Shown: positions 8,525 through 18,842, counted from the first letter of the stretch. The stretch: 50,751 bases of DNA from Pseudomonadota bacterium (GCA_014584465.1 JACTMU010000052.1:1-50751), one strand, 5' to 3'. Notes: a model not told the origin generated them from the letters alone. A program made the numbers and translations.

Positions 8525-9409
8525 ATGATACGCATCAACCAAAATCAATTGATCGAAATGCTTCTTCAATGTGGGCCCATTCACCCTTGGGCACCTCGCT
8601 CCTGGGAGATTGACCATCAGGGAAATCCCTTCATCGTGCCTGGGATGGGGGGAATTACCTTGAATGCGGGAGTGGGAGACTCGGCATTTGGCTGGGAGGG
8701 TGATCACATTGAGCCAAGTGTAAGTTGTATGGGGACCTCGGACAGTAGCAAGAGGTATGAGAATCCCAATTTGAGTCTACAGGTCTTTGGATGTTGCGGA
8801 AATGAAGCGGTCCTTATCTCTGGAGCTGCAAAGGGAAAGAAGGGGTATGTGATTGGCCACCACGGAGGTGCTGAGCATCTCATCGTGGAGTTTCCAAAGG
8901 CGGTCAAAGTTAAAATGACCTATGATGATAAGATCATGATTCGCTCAATTGGACAGGGTTTGAAGCTGTTGGATCATCCGTCGATCCATGTTCAGAATTT
9001 GGACCCTCATCTCCTAAAGAAGATGAGGATTAAGGATCTTCGAGGTGGAAAACTTGAAGTGCCCGTCACAACGATCGTTCCAGCCGAATGTATGGGATCT
9101 GGAATTGGGTCGCTTCATTTCAAACACGGAGATTATGATGTCATGACCAGCGATGAAGATGCCGTACGTAAGTATAAAATCGATAAGATGAGATTTGGTG
9201 ATTTTGTCGCAATTAAAGATCATGACACACGATATGGTGCGGCCCTGCGGCGGGGCGCAGTTTCAATAGGGATTGTCATTCACAGCGACTCCTTTTTGGC
9301 AGGTCACGGGCCAGGGATCACGATGTTGATGACGAGCCCGAAGAGTGACATCGTGCCTCGTCTCGATTCCAAGGCGAACATCAAGGAGTTGTTTCAGGCG
9401 AGGCGATAG
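8525..9409 (+). CDS. DUF4438 family protein
   Basis: A 294-residue cytoplasmic-type protein that matches my knowledge of the DUF4438 family. Seen are an N-terminal PGMGGITLNAGVGD segment, a GDHIEPSVS region, the Gly-rich GKKGYVIGHHGG stretch, a conserved VPAECMGSGIG motif and the FGDFVAIKDHDTRYGAALRRGAVSIG region, then GPGITMLMTS near the end. No signal peptide is present. Family function is unknown. The start ATG at 8525 follows a clear GGAGGA ribosome site at 8513-8520. A longer frame opening at 8465 has none and would begin inside the upstream remnant's stop region. It stands alone, about 70 bases before the GGDEF gene. Confidence 0.85.
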   Translation: MIRINQNQLIEMLLQCGPIHPWAPRSWEIDHQGNPFIVPGMGGITLNAGVGDSAFGWEGDHIEPSVSCMGTSDSSKRYENPNLSLQVFGCCGNEAVLISGAAKGKKGYVIGHHGGAEHLIVEFPKAVKVKMTYDDKIMIRSIGQGLKLLDHPSIHVQNLDPHLLKKMRIKDLRGGKLEVPVTTIVPAECMGSGIGSLHFKHGDYDVMTSDEDAVRKYKIDKMRFGDFVAIKDHDTRYGAALRRGAVSIGIVIHSDSFLAGHGPGITMLMTSPKSDIVPRLDSKANIKELFQARR

Positions 9410-9451
9410 TCTCGGATCTTTTGCTCCAGACCATGGTTTCGGCTTTGGCTC

Positions 9452-10969
9452 TTGCTCTTGCTCATTGGATTGATCGAAACTATGATGGAAGAAGTGAACC
9501 ACTCTCTTTTTGACAATCTCTATTGTCCAGTTTTGATCGTGAATGAATCCCTAAAGGTGATCTATTGCAACGATGCGATTTTAGGACTTCTCGGAGTCAG
9601 TTCAAGGACGCTTCGCCGAAGCAACAGCGTTTTAGATCAGATTCAATTTGACCCTCCGATGTTTGAGAATGTGGATCTTAAAGATGTGATTCTGCCTACC
9701 CCTTATCAAGAGGTCATACTTGAATCACGAGAGGGTACAAAAGCAAAAGGGCAAGTTGCAATTCAACCACTGGGAGAAGCGCCAGACGAGTTGGGACTGT
9801 GGTTGATTTACATTCGCGATGTAACTCTAGAGGAAAAACTTCAGGCCAAATATCGTAAGGAGATGCAACAAAAGCAGACCATGATTGAGGCCCTTGCAAA
9901 GACAAGTTCGGCTCTCAATAGAAAGCTTATGGAGCTTTCGATGTTGCTAAGAATTGCAAACGTGACCAGCTCTCTTGGAGATCTTGGAGTGATCATTGAT
10001 ACGATCTTTCGAGAGCTTTTCTCGTTCTTTCGGTTTAAACATTCAACTCTCTTTGTGTTGAGTCGAAATGGTTCAGAGTTGCGGGTCGAGGCATTTCACA
10101 GCAATCCACAAACAGCAGATGTGGGATTTGGTCAGCGTGAGATTCTTTTCACCGTGGATCGTTCCCATGAATTGATCAGCGAGGTGCTTCGCAACGAGGG
10201 GCCACTCTATGTTCGTAAGGACTACCAAAAGCCCTTTTTTGAAAACTTTGAAAAGTCGATAGGCTTTGAAGTTGCCGATGCAGTTATGATTCCTGTGAAA
10301 TCTAAGGGGCGCACTTTGGGAATGGTGATGATGTTAGGTTCTCCCGAAGGTTGGGTGGAAAAACCGGAAGATCTCAATCTCATGGATTCGATTGTGGGTC
10401 AGCTTGGAATCATCTTGGAAAACTCTGCACTTTACGAAAGTTCCATTCGAGATGGCTTGACCGGACTTCACAACGTAAGTTACTTCCGCTCTGTTTTGAA
10501 CTCCGAGATCAAACAGACTCTGAGATATGGATATTCGCTGAGCCTTATCTTATTTGACATCGATCATTTCAAATCCTTTAATGACAAATATGGCCATCAA
10601 ACAGGCGATCTTGTTTTGAAAGAGGTGTCCCGAGTGACTCAAGAGGCACTGAGGACCTCTGATGTGGCTGCTCGATATGGTGGTGAAGAGTTCGCAGTCA
10701 TTTGCCCTGCAACAGACGGGTTGGGGGCGGTGAAGGTGGCTGAGCGACTTCGAGAGGCCGTTGCAGCCAATAAGGTCATGGATGACGGAAGAGAGCTTTC
10801 AGTTACGATCAGCATAGGTGTTACGGAGGTCTCCAAGGAGGGCTCCTCGGTTGAGTCCTTGATCAGTGAGGCGGACCAAGCCCTCTATGCGGCAAAAGGT
10901 CGAGGTCGAAATCAAGTGGTTTTTTATAGCATGGAGCTGCTTCAAGAGGCCCAAAAGAAGGCTCAATAG
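9452..10969 (+). CDS. PAS-GAF diguanylate cyclase (GGDEF)
   Basis: A 505-residue signalling protein that should make c-di-GMP from two GTP. Order: a PAS-like domain (about 18-130, beginning LFDNLYCPVLIVNESLKVIYCNDAI), a coiled-coil linker (about 130-170), a GAF domain (about 170-330) and a GGDEF domain (about 335-495). The active site is intact as RYGGEEF. The inhibitory I-site RxxD is present as RTSD five residues before it, so product feedback is expected. Substrate-site elements DGLTGLHN and FDIDHFKSFND are also present. There is no transmembrane segment, so input is cytosolic. An internal ATG at 9482 is a likely alternative start; no strong ribosome site is visible for either. Confidence 0.92.
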   Translation: MLLLIGLIETMMEEVNHSLFDNLYCPVLIVNESLKVIYCNDAILGLLGVSSRTLRRSNSVLDQIQFDPPMFENVDLKDVILPTPYQEVILESREGTKAKGQVAIQPLGEAPDELGLWLIYIRDVTLEEKLQAKYRKEMQQKQTMIEALAKTSSALNRKLMELSMLLRIANVTSSLGDLGVIIDTIFRELFSFFRFKHSTLFVLSRNGSELRVEAFHSNPQTADVGFGQREILFTVDRSHELISEVLRNEGPLYVRKDYQKPFFENFEKSIGFEVADAVMIPVKSKGRTLGMVMMLGSPEGWVEKPEDLNLMDSIVGQLGIILENSALYESSIRDGLTGLHNVSYFRSVLNSEIKQTLRYGYSLSLILFDIDHFKSFNDKYGHQTGDLVLKEVSRVTQEALRTSDVAARYGGEEFAVICPATDGLGAVKVAERLREAVAANKVMDDGRELSVTISIGVTEVSKEGSSVESLISEADQALYAAKGRGRNQVVFYSMELLQEAQKKAQ

Positions 10970-11151
10970 CAGTAAAATTCTCTGTTTCAAAATGAGAAGA
11001 TCTTACATCTCACAAAAAAAGTGCATCTTTTCCGATTTTGAGGCGTTTCTCTATTGTGAGGTGCCCAAAACCGAGCCAGGACTTTTGTTTTTGATGAGAA
11101 ATCGCAAATGACTCTTTTGGTCGGTTTGGCACAATTCTTAGAAATGACACA

Positions 11152-12318
11152 ATGATAGAGAAGGAGTTCAGTTTGACATTGCATGACATCTTACATGAGG
11201 CCTCTGCTCGCAGTGCAAGTGATGTCCACCTTAAAGTGGAGACTCAACCACAAATTCGAATCAATGGCAATCTGGAGCCCATCAGCATCTCTCAGCCAAA
11301 GATTTCAAGAGAAAAGATGCAAACTATGGTGGAGTCCATCTTGGACTCAACTCAACTATCCAGTTTGCGGAACCAAAAAGAGATCGATGTGGGCTATGGT
11401 GTTTCTGGTTTAGGGAGGTTTCGCATCAACATCTTTCATCAAAGGGGATCGCTAGGAATGGTGATTCGATCCATTTCTCACATTGTCCCCTCCATCAATG
11501 AACTCTGCTTGCCTCCGATGGTGGGAAGGATTGCAGACGCGGATCGAGGTTTGGTGCTCGTGTGTGGGTCTCCTGGTTCAGGCAAGTCAACCACCCTGGC
11601 TGCCATGATCGATCTGATCAATCGAACCAGAAACAAACACATCATTACTCTTGAAGACCCTATAGAGTATCTCATTCATGATCAAAAGAGCCTCATCTCT
11701 CAAAGAGAGATTGGAATCGATACAAACAGTTATGCGCGAGCGCTTCGATCGGCTTTACGACAAGATCCAGATGTCATCATGATTGGAGAGATTCGAGATC
11801 GCGCGACTTTGGAGGTCGCGTTGGCCGCAGCCAAAACAGGAAAGTTGATCTTCTCAACATTGTGTGCAATGGACGCACAAGAGTCTCTTCAGCGCATCTT
11901 TGCGATGTACAATAAGGAACAGCAGTCGGACATTCGGAGCCAGGTGGCATCGGCACTTAGGAGCATCATCAGTCAGAAGCTCTTTCGTGAGAAAAAGATG
12001 AAAAGAAAATCTTATCTTCTTGCTGAGATCTTGGTGAACAACGATCAAGTCAGAAGCATGATTTTAGACCCCAGCAAGACGGATCAAGTGAAGCACTTCA
12101 TAGACGAGGGAAGGTCTGGTCGGTACGGACAGTCGTTTGACCAATCTCTCTGGGGTTTGGTTTCACAGGGAGTCATGGAGCTTGAAGATGCTTTGAGTTT
12201 AGCAGAAAATCCCACTCTCTTTCAGAAGCGAATGAAACCTTTAGGAATTCAGAGTTCTCATTCCTCCGAAGAGGACCTCTCCTATCCTCAGGGGTGGCTT
12301 CTTCAACGCCAGCAGTGA
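11152..12318 (+). CDS. PilT-like type IV pilus retraction ATPase
   Basis: A 388-residue ATPase of the PilT/VirB11 secretion superfamily, acting as a cytoplasmic hexamer that depolymerises type IV pili. Seen are an N-terminal PAS-like domain (ASDVHLKVETQPQIRINGNL), Walker A GSPGSGKST (139-147), an Asp box ITLEDPIEY (165-173) and Walker B PDVIMIGEIRD (206-216). In the His box the usual His of TLHT is replaced by Cys238 (FSTLCAMDAQESLQRI). The terminal AIRNLIRE-type motif of classical PilT is not evident, and the tail is Ser/Glu rich. It may be a divergent PilT paralogue with altered catalysis. It follows a 180-base gap after the cyclase gene. Confidence 0.85.
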   Translation: MIEKEFSLTLHDILHEASARSASDVHLKVETQPQIRINGNLEPISISQPKISREKMQTMVESILDSTQLSSLRNQKEIDVGYGVSGLGRFRINIFHQRGSLGMVIRSISHIVPSINELCLPPMVGRIADADRGLVLVCGSPGSGKSTTLAAMIDLINRTRNKHIITLEDPIEYLIHDQKSLISQREIGIDTNSYARALRSALRQDPDVIMIGEIRDRATLEVALAAAKTGKLIFSTLCAMDAQESLQRIFAMYNKEQQSDIRSQVASALRSIISQKLFREKKMKRKSYLLAEILVNNDQVRSMILDPSKTDQVKHFIDEGRSGRYGQSFDQSLWGLVSQGVMELEDALSLAENPTLFQKRMKPLGIQSSHSSEEDLSYPQGWLLQRQQ

Positions 12319-15246: not shown

Positions 15247-15274
15247 CAAAAATGGAATTACCGGACAGCCCCTA
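15247..15274 (+). repeat. 28-bp dispersed repeat, copy 2
   Basis: Identical to 8263-8290 and 13 bases after the stop of the plus-strand response regulator. Its last three bases (CTA) are the complement of the TAG stop codon of the ATP-grasp gene on the minus strand, so the repeat defines the present C-terminus of that protein. Confidence 0.7.
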
Positions 15275-17020
15275 CCTATGTAGCTTGAACTTACTCGTTC
15301 GTATGAGGTTGGCCTTCTGCTTGAGTTTAGGTTTTTGTGGACGATGTTTGACCAAAACCGCGAGTTCATGGCCACGTGCACCCAGATTGACTTTTCCGTT
15401 GCCATCCCTTGGCACGGCACGCGACCAAGGTGTATTGGAAACAATCACTGAAATCTCCTCATTGTGTGGATCTACCTGGACTTGAGAGATGAGCCTCAGA
15501 TCCGTGATGTCATTTCCTACAACTGAAGGGTGCATAAAAGTCTGTGTGATGTATCGGTCATACTCAGATTTGATTGTTTCAATGGCGAGTTTCACTTCTT
15601 TCGGTTGAAGTCGTGGGCCAATGAAGACGCCATCTCCACTTCGGCCATCGACCGGTTTTGCAACTCGTTGCTCCAAGTTTTCAATCAAATCTTTGAAGAC
15701 CTTCTCATTTAGACTGAAAGATCCATCTCTTTCAGCCCTGTAAAGACTCTTTGTGGGAACGTTTCGAAGAATGGGCTTCTCGCCAAGGTAGTACCCGATT
15801 AGATCTTCCATGAAAAGATAGAACTCTTTGTCACCAACGAAGTCAGTTCCTGGGGTGTAGTTGGTGCGCACGTTACCCTGAAGGACGGCCGAAGTAAGGC
15901 CAGGGGTCCCTCGGGCTTGCTGTTTCTGTATCCTATCATAGGGGTAGGGGGACTTCGTTTGTAGGGTCAAGTCAATCTTATCGTAGTCTAAGTGTCCATC
16001 TGAAGTTTGAGTTGCGATTGCCTTTGCGAGGGCAGAGGCTGATTTCTTTGGCAATGCATCTCTGCCTGTGTAGCTGAGCTGCATCTTAGCCTCTTTGACA
16101 AGCCAGAGATTCTTTGTTGCCTCGTGACTCGAATCGGCTTCATGGTACTCACTATTGAGAATCAAATATCCGACACGTCTTTTCACGAGAGATCCATGTT
16201 TATTCGTCCATTCCAAATAGAGCTTTCCATTTCGCTCCTTCAGTTTCTTCTTTGTAAAGGGCGTTACGACATCCACATTGAGTGATTTCCAGATCTTCTT
16301 AAGCCTTAAATCTTCATTGTCCGGATAGGGTGGCACGAGAAAGAAAACGATCCGATCCTTGGGGCGGTTGGTCTGAGCTCGGAAATTTTGGACGAGTTCC
16401 TGAAAGAACTCCATTGGGTTGTCCAAATTCGCAAGTTGTTTTTGATAGTCCATTCGATTGAAGAGAACTTCTCGAGCTTTGAGTAAGTCTCCAATTCCGC
16501 CGATATAGCCAATGTTGTCTTCGAGCACTCGCCATACTCCTTCTGCATCTCGAATGATGTCGGGTCCATAGGGAAAGGAAATTTGGGCATGTTCAAGTTG
16601 GTCTTCAAATGACTCCTCACCATTTCGTTGTATGATTCGTTTTATGACGGACTCTGGGATAATGTTGTCTTTAAGATATTTCTTTTCGCCTGAATAGTGA
16701 TCACGTAGGAACATCGCTATAGCTTTAGCCCGTTGCACAGTGCCTTTTTTGAGTAGTGCATACTCACTCTCTGTGAGTATTCTTGGAATCGGACCTAAGG
16801 CGTTGTCATTTTGAAAATCCCTCTTGGTAACTTCTTTGAATTTTTCTTCTTGCTCAGAAGACCATCCGGAAAAAAGAGGATGGATGTCCTTGTAATGGGC
16901 CCGAACATTGCCTTTGTGATCATAGACCTCGTCGTAGAATTCTTGATCAGCCTTCGTCTGTGGCAGAAGGAGTGCGATCGAGCAGAATGTAAGGGTGATG
17001 GCGTAGGTCAGTCGATTCAT
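15272..17020 (-). CDS. Circularly permuted ATP-grasp protein with signal peptide
   Basis: About 582 residues, matching circularly permuted type 2 ATP-grasp proteins (DUF404/DUF407 region). Seen are the N-terminal FYDEVYDHKGNVRAHY segment, the SFPYGPDIIRDAEGVWRVLEDNIGYIGGIG block, ARGTPGLTSAVLQGNV, and the nucleotide-binding VAKPVDGRSGDGVFIGP loop. The family is thought to form amide bonds in small peptides using ATP. Unusually, a clean signal peptide (MNRLTYAITLTFCSIALLLP, cleavage near TKA-DQ) precedes the domain. The start ATG at 17020 overlaps the upstream stop as ATGA, so translation is coupled to the metallopeptidase gene. The usual partners (DUF403 alpha-E protein, transglutaminase-like gene) are not adjacent. 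The substrate is unknown. Confidence 0.82.
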   Translation of the reverse strand: MNRLTYAITLTFCSIALLLPQTKADQEFYDEVYDHKGNVRAHYKDIHPLFSGWSSEQEEKFKEVTKRDFQNDNALGPIPRILTESEYALLKKGTVQRAKAIAMFLRDHYSGEKKYLKDNIIPESVIKRIIQRNGEESFEDQLEHAQISFPYGPDIIRDAEGVWRVLEDNIGYIGGIGDLLKAREVLFNRMDYQKQLANLDNPMEFFQELVQNFRAQTNRPKDRIVFFLVPPYPDNEDLRLKKIWKSLNVDVVTPFTKKKLKERNGKLYLEWTNKHGSLVKRRVGYLILNSEYHEADSSHEATKNLWLVKEAKMQLSYTGRDALPKKSASALAKAIATQTSDGHLDYDKIDLTLQTKSPYPYDRIQKQQARGTPGLTSAVLQGNVRTNYTPGTDFVGDKEFYLFMEDLIGYYLGEKPILRNVPTKSLYRAERDGSFSLNEKVFKDLIENLEQRVAKPVDGRSGDGVFIGPRLQPKEVKLAIETIKSEYDRYITQTFMHPSVVGNDITDLRLISQVQVDPHNEEISVIVSNTPWSRAVPRDGNGKVNLGARGHELAVLVKHRPQKPKLKQKANLIRTSKFKLHR

Positions 17021-18669
17021 GGCATTGTTCTCCGGTAACGCTGAAAGATCTGTTGAAGTTTTTTGGAAAGGAATTGGTATGGTCTGGTGTTGAAACCCTC
17101 TTCTTCCATAGTTTCGACCGTATGCATAATCCAAGCGTGAGTTTCGTCATGAAGAACGGAATCTTCATAGCCCATCTTCTTGGAGAGCCATGCTTCGACA
17201 TCCTTCAAATTGTACTGAGACAAGATTGAATCAATCTCGGAGCGATAGCGGTGATTCAAATGGTAGAGAGCATGGGCGATTTCATGATCTAGAGTTTTCA
17301 AATCCTGATCAAAAGTTGTTCCGATAAAATAGATATGATCACTGTCTCCGATCTTCTTGAACATCCTAATGAGGATTCGCTCATCTAAGGTAAGATTTGG
17401 AAACTTGCCCGCCAAGAAGGGTTGGATCACAGTTCCTGGAAAATTAAACCCATCCCAGAAGGTGTAGTAGTTTTTGATACTTGGGACATTGGATTTGTAC
17501 CATTTTCGAAATTCAGAACGGCTGAACACTTTGTCTTTGAACATCGGAGATTCGAAATGCTCCTGAAAGCGGACCAAAGACTTGGCCATCCTTCTTTGGT
17601 CATAGAATCGAAAGTGCAAAAGGTTGGGAAGAGGCATCGAGAGCACGCCTAGGTCTGCGATTTCGAAATTGCTTTTACCTTGAAGGTCGGAAAGTTCGGG
17701 TAAACGTGCTTTTCGGACCATCTTTGAAATCTCTTTTTCATCAAAGATGGTCTTGTTTGCGGTTTGATCCAAATCATGAGGGATCGTTCGTGTAGGTTTG
17801 TTCAGGATATCAGTGATGAGTTTGCGCATCAAAGTCCACTGATATCTTCGCCAAGAGTATCCGAGGAGTCTCACAGATTCCATTTCGAGTCGTTGAGCTA
17901 TTTGGTGCGTTCTATGATAGAGCTCCTCCTCAATTTGGAGTTCATCAATGAGCGATTTCTCGACGGATTCATGGATGATCAGAGGTTTTAGGACATTGAT
18001 GGATTCTTGATTATTGTCAAGACGGTAGTGATCTTGAATGGAGCGATCTATATATATCTTAAGGGGAGAGTTTTTGGAATAACCCGCCAACAGCGGTATG
18101 TCATACTCCCTGTTCAGAGTCACTCTAGACCAAATGGCATTGAAGGCCTCTTCCAAAACATGGCTTGAGGTATTAAAGTCCAAGGTTTCCTTTTTCATCG
18201 CAAGTACAAAGGAACGCCAGTTGATTTTCGAGGTCTTGAATATTTGTTTTTGGACTCGTAATGAGAGTTCTCGTGCATGAAGTTCTGAAACGCCAAGGCG
18301 TTTGGTGAACGCAGCCTCGAGAGATGCTTGAACCTTGAAGAAATTATCTAGGTCAACGAACTTTCCAGTTTCTGATACCCATCTTCGAGGTAGCTCGTCT
18401 GAAATTACTACAAGGTCACCTTTTTTGAAGTAGATGGACTTGAGTTGTCGTTCACGGCGGATATGAATTTTTTTTATGATGGCCATGTGGGAGTCAAGGA
18501 GAAAGTATGAAGAGTTTTCAGTGGGGACCGTTGGTTTTCGCGTAAGTAGAAACTCGGCAGAGATCTGATCCTCTGCGAAGAGAGATGAACATTTTTCACT
18601 CCCTAAACCGAAATGAGAGTGAAGTACGAGCATAAGCTCCACAAATAAGAACAAAAAGATACGTGCCAT
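17017..18669 (-). CDS. Putative exported zinc metallopeptidase, two-part protein
   Basis: 550 residues with a signal peptide (MARIFLFLFVELMLVLHSHF). The C-terminal half has HEIAH (462-466) inside LDHEIAHALYHLNHRY and a second acidic motif LHDETHAW (Glu near 509). This is the HExxH plus distal Glu pattern of gluzincin-type zinc peptidases. The middle part (about 195-275) holds a separate conserved-looking block, IPLLAGYSKN..IYIDRS.., then IIHESVEKSLIDEL and THQIAQRLE, whose His/Glu pattern could be a second metal site. The start ATG at 18669 follows AAGGA. A TTG at 18687 is a weaker option. It is the first gene of a two-gene operon with the ATP-grasp gene. Peptidase activity is inferred from motifs only. 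Confidence 0.68.
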   Translation of the reverse strand: MARIFLFLFVELMLVLHSHFGLGSEKCSSLFAEDQISAEFLLTRKPTVPTENSSYFLLDSHMAIIKKIHIRRERQLKSIYFKKGDLVVISDELPRRWVSETGKFVDLDNFFKVQASLEAAFTKRLGVSELHARELSLRVQKQIFKTSKINWRSFVLAMKKETLDFNTSSHVLEEAFNAIWSRVTLNREYDIPLLAGYSKNSPLKIYIDRSIQDHYRLDNNQESINVLKPLIIHESVEKSLIDELQIEEELYHRTHQIAQRLEMESVRLLGYSWRRYQWTLMRKLITDILNKPTRTIPHDLDQTANKTIFDEKEISKMVRKARLPELSDLQGKSNFEIADLGVLSMPLPNLLHFRFYDQRRMAKSLVRFQEHFESPMFKDKVFSRSEFRKWYKSNVPSIKNYYTFWDGFNFPGTVIQPFLAGKFPNLTLDERILIRMFKKIGDSDHIYFIGTTFDQDLKTLDHEIAHALYHLNHRYRSEIDSILSQYNLKDVEAWLSKKMGYEDSVLHDETHAWIMHTVETMEEEGFNTRPYQFLSKKLQQIFQRYRRTMP

Positions 18670-18842
18670 ATTTTTTTCCTTATGCAAACTTCAGACCATG
18701 TTGACTTTTGAGATCAACCTTTGCTCGTGGTCATAGACTACACCTTGGTATTGTTCGGTTTTGTAATGATATTATGAGAATATTTTTGGGATTTGTTTCT
18801 GGTATTTGGCTTTTTGAAGGAATTTCTTTCATGGATCTTTGA

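Follow-up and report, generated by a model that had tools for sequence, protein, structure and literature searches.

Because they consume ATP, ligases of the ATP-grasp type are considered cytosolic enzymes. Among the described systems, the nearest to the ATP-grasp protein studied here is the Alpha-E/transglutaminase/Anbu peptide system (Iyer et al. 2009, cited in PMC5666114). The protein and the ligase of that system belong to the same Pfam family and have the same fold and site residues. However, the present protein carries a predicted signal peptide, has neither a transglutaminase nor Anbu adjoining it, and lies outside the classical clade, from which it is deeply diverged. In the classical operons, the Anbu peptidase can be an additional member (PMC5666114). 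A search of the open-access literature returned no paper on exported circularly permuted ATP-grasp proteins.

The window, i.e. the whole stretch of 50,751 nucleotides that was analysed, is contig C108 of a 3.75 Mb genome that is 99.67% complete. The host is a Bdellovibrionota-type bacterium, and relatives named among the genome contigs are Bdellovibrionota MAGs. This phylum is known for predatory bacteria.

The gene pair and its distribution

Two genes lie in tandem on the minus strand, with the gene for an HExxH protein as the upstream member and the gene for the ATP-grasp protein as the downstream member (Table 1). The HExxH gene starts with an ATG at 18670-18672, upstream of which is the ribosome site AAGGAAAA. 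The two genes are joined by an ATGA in the context CCATGAATCG, with a GGAG upstream of the ATP-grasp start. An earlier start at 17134, taken from the ORF list, was rejected as too early. The initial annotation had placed the two genes, joined by ATGA, at 15272-18669; its genes and overlap stand, but its end is 3 bases short of 18672. The two ORFs are not a product of chance: searches of other genomes gave relatives of each protein with E < 1e-60. A scan of the pair for promoters and terminators gave results at chance level.

Table 1. Features of the gene pair, with positions in the window unless a locus is named
Feature	Position	Strand	Basis
Gene for 551-aa HExxH protein, probably exported	17017..18672	-	ORF; relatives G068 6e-67, G093 2e-29
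C-terminal domain, residues 334-548, common to the Patescibacteria/DPANN/phage family	17029..17673	-	pLDDT about 95; 45 genome and 80 viral loci
HEIAH, residues 463-467	17272..17286	-	>= 90% conserved in 66 sequences
Glu510, invariant, candidate third metal ligand	17143..17145	-	66-sequence alignment
ATGA overlap, stop of HExxH gene and start of ATP-grasp gene	17017..17020	-	
Gene for 582-aa circularly permuted ATP-grasp protein, predicted exported	15272..17020	-	PF14403 3.3e-42, PF04174 6.4e-35, model pLDDT 92.4
ATP-grasp signal peptide (predicted), residues 1-24, MNRLTYAITLTFCSIALLLPQTKA	16949..17020	-	own rule, not SignalP; read from sequence
E167-D168-N169, probable Mg-binding E-x-N	16514..16522	-	97% in exported members, identical in cytosolic member
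K455, probable ATP lysine before Gly-rich loop	15656..15658	-	100% conserved
D507-x-R509	15494..15502	-	100% conserved
Larger permuted ATP-grasp group	L221 117-2522; L222 5526-8009; L223 1310-4408; L224 4398-7595; L225 5002-8466; L227 4985-7420		

The distribution of the pair was followed at two levels, with one genome per species and with first-look filters applied in the homologue searches. Each protein was searched against 144 genomes of the class, and the phylum, with 369 genomes, was searched with an alignment of the HExxH domain and with one of the ATP-grasp protein. Some 40 ATP-grasp genes were also inspected for their neighbours. An adjacent ATP-grasp/HExxH pair occurs in 1 of the 369 phylum genomes, which is the present one, and the pairing is therefore a local arrangement and at best a weak functional hint. 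What the locus holds is two probably exported proteins translated in tandem here, and the view of the initial annotation that they form a unit, its leading candidate for an undescribed system, finds no support. A pairing confined to this genome is what that annotation had itself named as speaking against it; the two other conditions it named, homologues lacking signal peptides and poorly conserved HExxH and ATP-binding residues, do not hold. A strong HExxH domain is present in six phylum genomes (G000, G068, G093, G327, G352 and G357). Three of these six also have a strong ATP-grasp, compared with 45 of the 369 genomes overall (p = 0.026, uncorrected), a weak co-occurrence. In both G068 and G327 the HExxH gene and the ATP-grasp genes are on different contigs and unlinked.

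Among the surroundings read, the exported ATP-grasp genes have no conserved neighbour beyond the synteny of close kin. The genes beside them include an L,D-transpeptidase (L034), an S9 peptidase (L041), an LCAT-like lipase (L036) and a papain-like protein (L048), none of which repeats. At the last of these loci (8740-11246, genome G141), the exported ATP-grasp gene overlaps by 4 bases, again ATGA, the gene for an exported protein with a papain-family match; this is an independent ligase/protease pairing that parallels the one in the window.

The ATP-grasp protein, its ATP site and its export

The assignment of the downstream protein to the circularly permuted ATP-grasp type, already made in the initial annotation, is secured by its Pfam matches, of which that to PF14403 reaches 145 bits against a curated cut-off of 32. 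An AlphaFold (AF2) model, built from a 35-sequence alignment with a pTM of 0.90, matches the fold of 3n6x at E 9.2e-26 (TM 0.63/0.80). Further fold matches are glutathione and glutathionylspermidine synthetases, several of them solved with ADP or AMP-PNP and Mg, and the permuted ATP-grasp fold is present in the model of the window protein.

Conservation of the site was scored for the residues that exported members have in common with the classical cytosolic member. No variation is seen at D154, K398, K455, G459, G462, Q493, D507, R509, R534 and N545 across 31 exported members, many of which are less than 40% identical pairwise, and E167-D168-N169 is kept in all of them except the signal-bearing L049. 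In the window protein, E167, N169, K398, K455, D507, R509 and N545 are all present and conserved. From general knowledge of the superfamily, rather than from a residue-wise comparison with ligand-bound structures, we take the E-x-N as the probable Mg ligand, and the two lysines, together with the Gly-rich loop, as the probable ATP-binding elements. Since the site residues are conserved among such highly diverged proteins, the use of ATP is likely to have been kept and a dead site is unlikely. This argues against the earlier suggestion that the fold may no longer use ATP.

The ATP-grasp protein begins with a clear signal peptide, MNRLTYAITLTFCSIALLLPQTKA followed by DQ. N-termini were classed with a home-made and lax rule, not SignalP, which looks for a positive n-region, a hydrophobic run and either a small-x-small motif or a lipobox. 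Signal-like N-termini are found by this rule in 32 of the 39 ATP-grasp homologues versus 103 of 278 neighbouring genes (p = 1.3e-7), the latter setting the background of positives at 37%. The seven failures include two N-termini that look like signals and have no basic residue (L039 and L050), two proteins that start near the conserved part (L042 and L044), the classical cytosolic form (L046) and two phylum paralogues without a signal (L285 and L286). Lipoprotein-type sites are seen in the relatives L276 and L278 and, by eye, in L273 and L281; they are a second predicted route to the same compartment. Predicted export of the ATP-grasp protein is the rule in the phylum and not an oddity of this genome. 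The HExxH protein is less typical: Glu11 breaks its hydrophobic stretch, the simple signal rule fails, and its N-terminus is probably an atypical signal peptide. Signals are found in 8 of the 13 listed Bdellovibrionota HExxH members, excluding L228, an internal false start that scores positive. The earlier reading of both proteins as exported thus remains probable, and the prediction is unusual for an ATP-grasp protein when set against the classical cytosolic form.

Five canonical ATP-grasp members start without a signal peptide, in contrast to the window protein. Alpha-E (PF04168) is absent from the present genome and occurs in 1 of the 144 class genomes, G123, which has a classical ATP-grasp operon and a 501-bit match to PF14403; the initial annotation was right that the locus departs from the standard DUF403/transglutaminase arrangement. 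The operon of G123 (L046, 6830-10149) is the sole classical ATP-grasp/Alpha-E operon in these 144 genomes and is followed by what appears by eye to be a transglutaminase-like gene. Maximum-likelihood analysis places the classical members (G123 and the Deinococcus, Hymenobacter, Klebsiella and Sphingomonas plasmid operons) in a clade with 100/100 support, whose branch has a length of 4.65 changes per column. The exported ATP-grasps of the phylum, from families f3, f7, f9, f12, f26 and f27, lie apart from this clade and group roughly by family, in a tree that is unrooted, has few classical members and does not fix the exact place of the window protein. The classical operon on the Klebsiella plasmid includes a proteasome-type protease. 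On the Hymenobacter plasmid, a zinc-binding metallopeptidase gene (L288, 1414-2495) is placed divergently beside the classical ATP-grasp/Alpha-E/transglutaminase operon. The class of the present genome also has a second group of proteins with circularly permuted ATP-grasp domains, of 800-1150 aa and with signal-like N-termini (Table 1), whose regions outside the ATP-grasp gave no Pfam match, and many ORFs of ~1250 aa elsewhere in the phylum have weak matches to the ATP-grasp alignment.

The HExxH protein and its relatives

The C-terminal ~215 aa of the HExxH protein form a confidently predicted domain, and the preceding ~300 residues are of low confidence and shared only with G068. An alignment of 66 sequences shows no variation at Y502 and E510 and at least 90% conservation at H463, E464, H467, W406, G408, F409, N410, P412, D509 and A513, so that the motif noted in the initial annotation holds together with the residues around it. 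In the predicted model, HEIAH sits in a helix (458-472) and E510 is also helical. An HExxH motif with a downstream invariant Glu, both in helices, is the usual layout of zincins and single-zinc peptidases.

A scan of genome contigs with the single HExxH sequence found nothing. A two-motif scan of the same contigs found 45 loci, mostly in Patescibacteria and DPANN archaea (Yanofskybacteria, Paceibacterota and Parcubacteria; Woesearchaeota and Nanoarchaeota), and a scan of viral contigs gave 85 loci, of which 80 were kept. The Patescibacteria, DPANN and phage members are ~205 aa long, with signals in 1 of 123. Searches of Pfam, NCBIfam and PHROGs with the HExxH protein and the 66 alignment members yielded scattered weak matches, none of them informative. 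The PDB gave no match to the HExxH protein by sequence or by fold (fold E < 0.1), for which the poor N-terminal half of the model may be a hindrance; the ATP-grasp model, submitted to the same structural check, did find 3n6x. A search of BFVD returned one uncharacterised Megaviridae protein. As no solved structure matches the domain, zinc binding and peptidase activity are predicted from the motif and its conservation, and the protein is referred to as a putative metallopeptidase.

In the viral contigs (L096-L175), the HExxH gene lies upstream of the same two genes in 71-73 of 80 contigs, at distances of ~0.8 and 2.2 kb; by eye these resemble thyX and a UV-damage endonuclease gene. In phage XacN1, the HExxH gene follows a MazG gene, and its product (BBA65580; L291, 3962-4606) carries the label 'ABC transporter ATP-binding protein', which appears to be wrong.

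Interpretation and comparison with known systems

The window ATP-grasp protein belongs to a known family, of which it is a phylum-wide variant, predicted to be exported and with its site intact. The reading that we prefer, and to which we give about an even chance, is that an exported and still active ATP-grasp ligase, a single-gene subfamily of the phylum, stands in tandem, here only, with an exported putative zinc peptidase. The ligase would be an ATP- and Mg-dependent carboxylate-amine ligase of the permuted glutathione-synthetase/glutathionylspermidine-synthetase type, which would convert a peptide carboxylate to an acyl phosphate and then couple it with an amine. Its place of action would be the envelope or the cell exterior, its substrates cell-wall peptides, surface proteins or matter from other cells, and its fuel ATP leaked or set free outside the cytosol. 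The HExxH protein would be a peptidase with a single zinc, for which H463, H467 and E510 would be the ligands, and in this genome may trim or recycle the substrate of the ligase. In the periplasm of E. coli, ATP is about 24 uM per 10^10 cells and is quickly hydrolysed (review; PMC7432876). Such scarcity of ATP outside the cytosol counts against an active exported ligase, as do the signal-bearing L049 without E-D-N and the signal-less paralogues L285 and L286.

Alternatively, the exported protein may have ceased to use ATP and may serve as an envelope binding or scaffold protein; no ATP supply outside the cytosol is known, and E-D-N is missing from one exported relative at least, L049. We consider this unlikely, because an idle site should drift and the 31 diverged members all keep K398, K455, the Gly-rich loop, D-x-R and N545 unchanged. 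It is more improbable still that the N-terminal segment is a membrane anchor or an unused export signal that leaves the enzyme at the cytosolic face. Although the signal rule cannot separate a cleaved signal from an anchor and the N-terminus of the HExxH protein is atypical, most members show a small-x-small site after their hydrophobic run, a lipoprotein-type Cys occurs in several relatives, and export is the usual fate of a soluble domain behind one N-terminal segment.

About as improbable is a conserved two-gene unit in which exported ATP-grasp and HExxH peptidase always cooperate on cell-wall or other peptides. The ATGA coupling and the uncorrected co-occurrence speak for it, as do by analogy the ATP-grasp/papain-like overlap of G141 and the classical operons with Anbu (PMC5666114) or a proteasome-type protease, but the genes adjoin in one genome of 369, exported ATP-grasps have no common neighbour and in G068 and G327 the HExxH gene is unlinked. 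The alternative that carries the most weight, still somewhat doubtful, is that the HExxH domain has a zinc-like motif but is a binding protein or an enzyme of another kind. In its favour are the lack of a PDB fold match, the many further invariant residues around W-x-GFN-x-P and the intracellular place of the domain in phages and in cells with tiny genomes; against it, the helical HExxH with its downstream invariant Glu is the usual zincin pattern.

A bolder form of the preferred reading, which we think unlikely, is that the active exported ligase is phylum-wide and works outside the cytosol, perhaps using ATP freed by lysis to act on peptides of prey or envelope, and has been coupled in this lineage to an exported metallopeptidase recruited from the phage/Patescibacteria/DPANN family. 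Genus g5 of the same order, which is represented by many genomes, is mostly without a strong exported ATP-grasp, which weakens prey ATP as a general explanation, and the link to predation is a guess.

Each half of the locus is more informative alone than as part of a pair. A subfamily with predicted export, its ATP site conserved throughout a phylum, raises the question of whether ATP-dependent ligation occurs outside the bacterial cytosol and, related to it, where the ATP of an exported ligase would come from. The family defined by the HExxH domain is widespread but has no name and is in part mislabelled; it deserves a family model and a function.

Among solved structures, 3n6x, a 'putative glutathionylspermidine synthase' of Methylobacillus flagellatus, is the closest to the ATP-grasp protein both by sequence (4.5e-27) and by fold. 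The two are 21% identical, and the window protein is longer (582 vs 474 aa) and has the predicted signal peptide. The glutathione-synthetase-like effectors of Globodera pallida (5oeu, 5oev and 5oet; effectors according to their PDB titles) have the same permuted ATP-grasp fold and are secreted, but they are eukaryotic and about 10% identical to the window protein, so the likeness is one of analogy only. The HExxH protein has its counterpart in the unnamed Patescibacteria/DPANN/phage family (e.g. XacN1 BBA65580), with which it shares the ~205-aa domain at 28-45% identity and the same motifs; members of that family are single-domain proteins nearly all without a signal, whereas the window protein is probably exported and has ~300 extra N-terminal residues.
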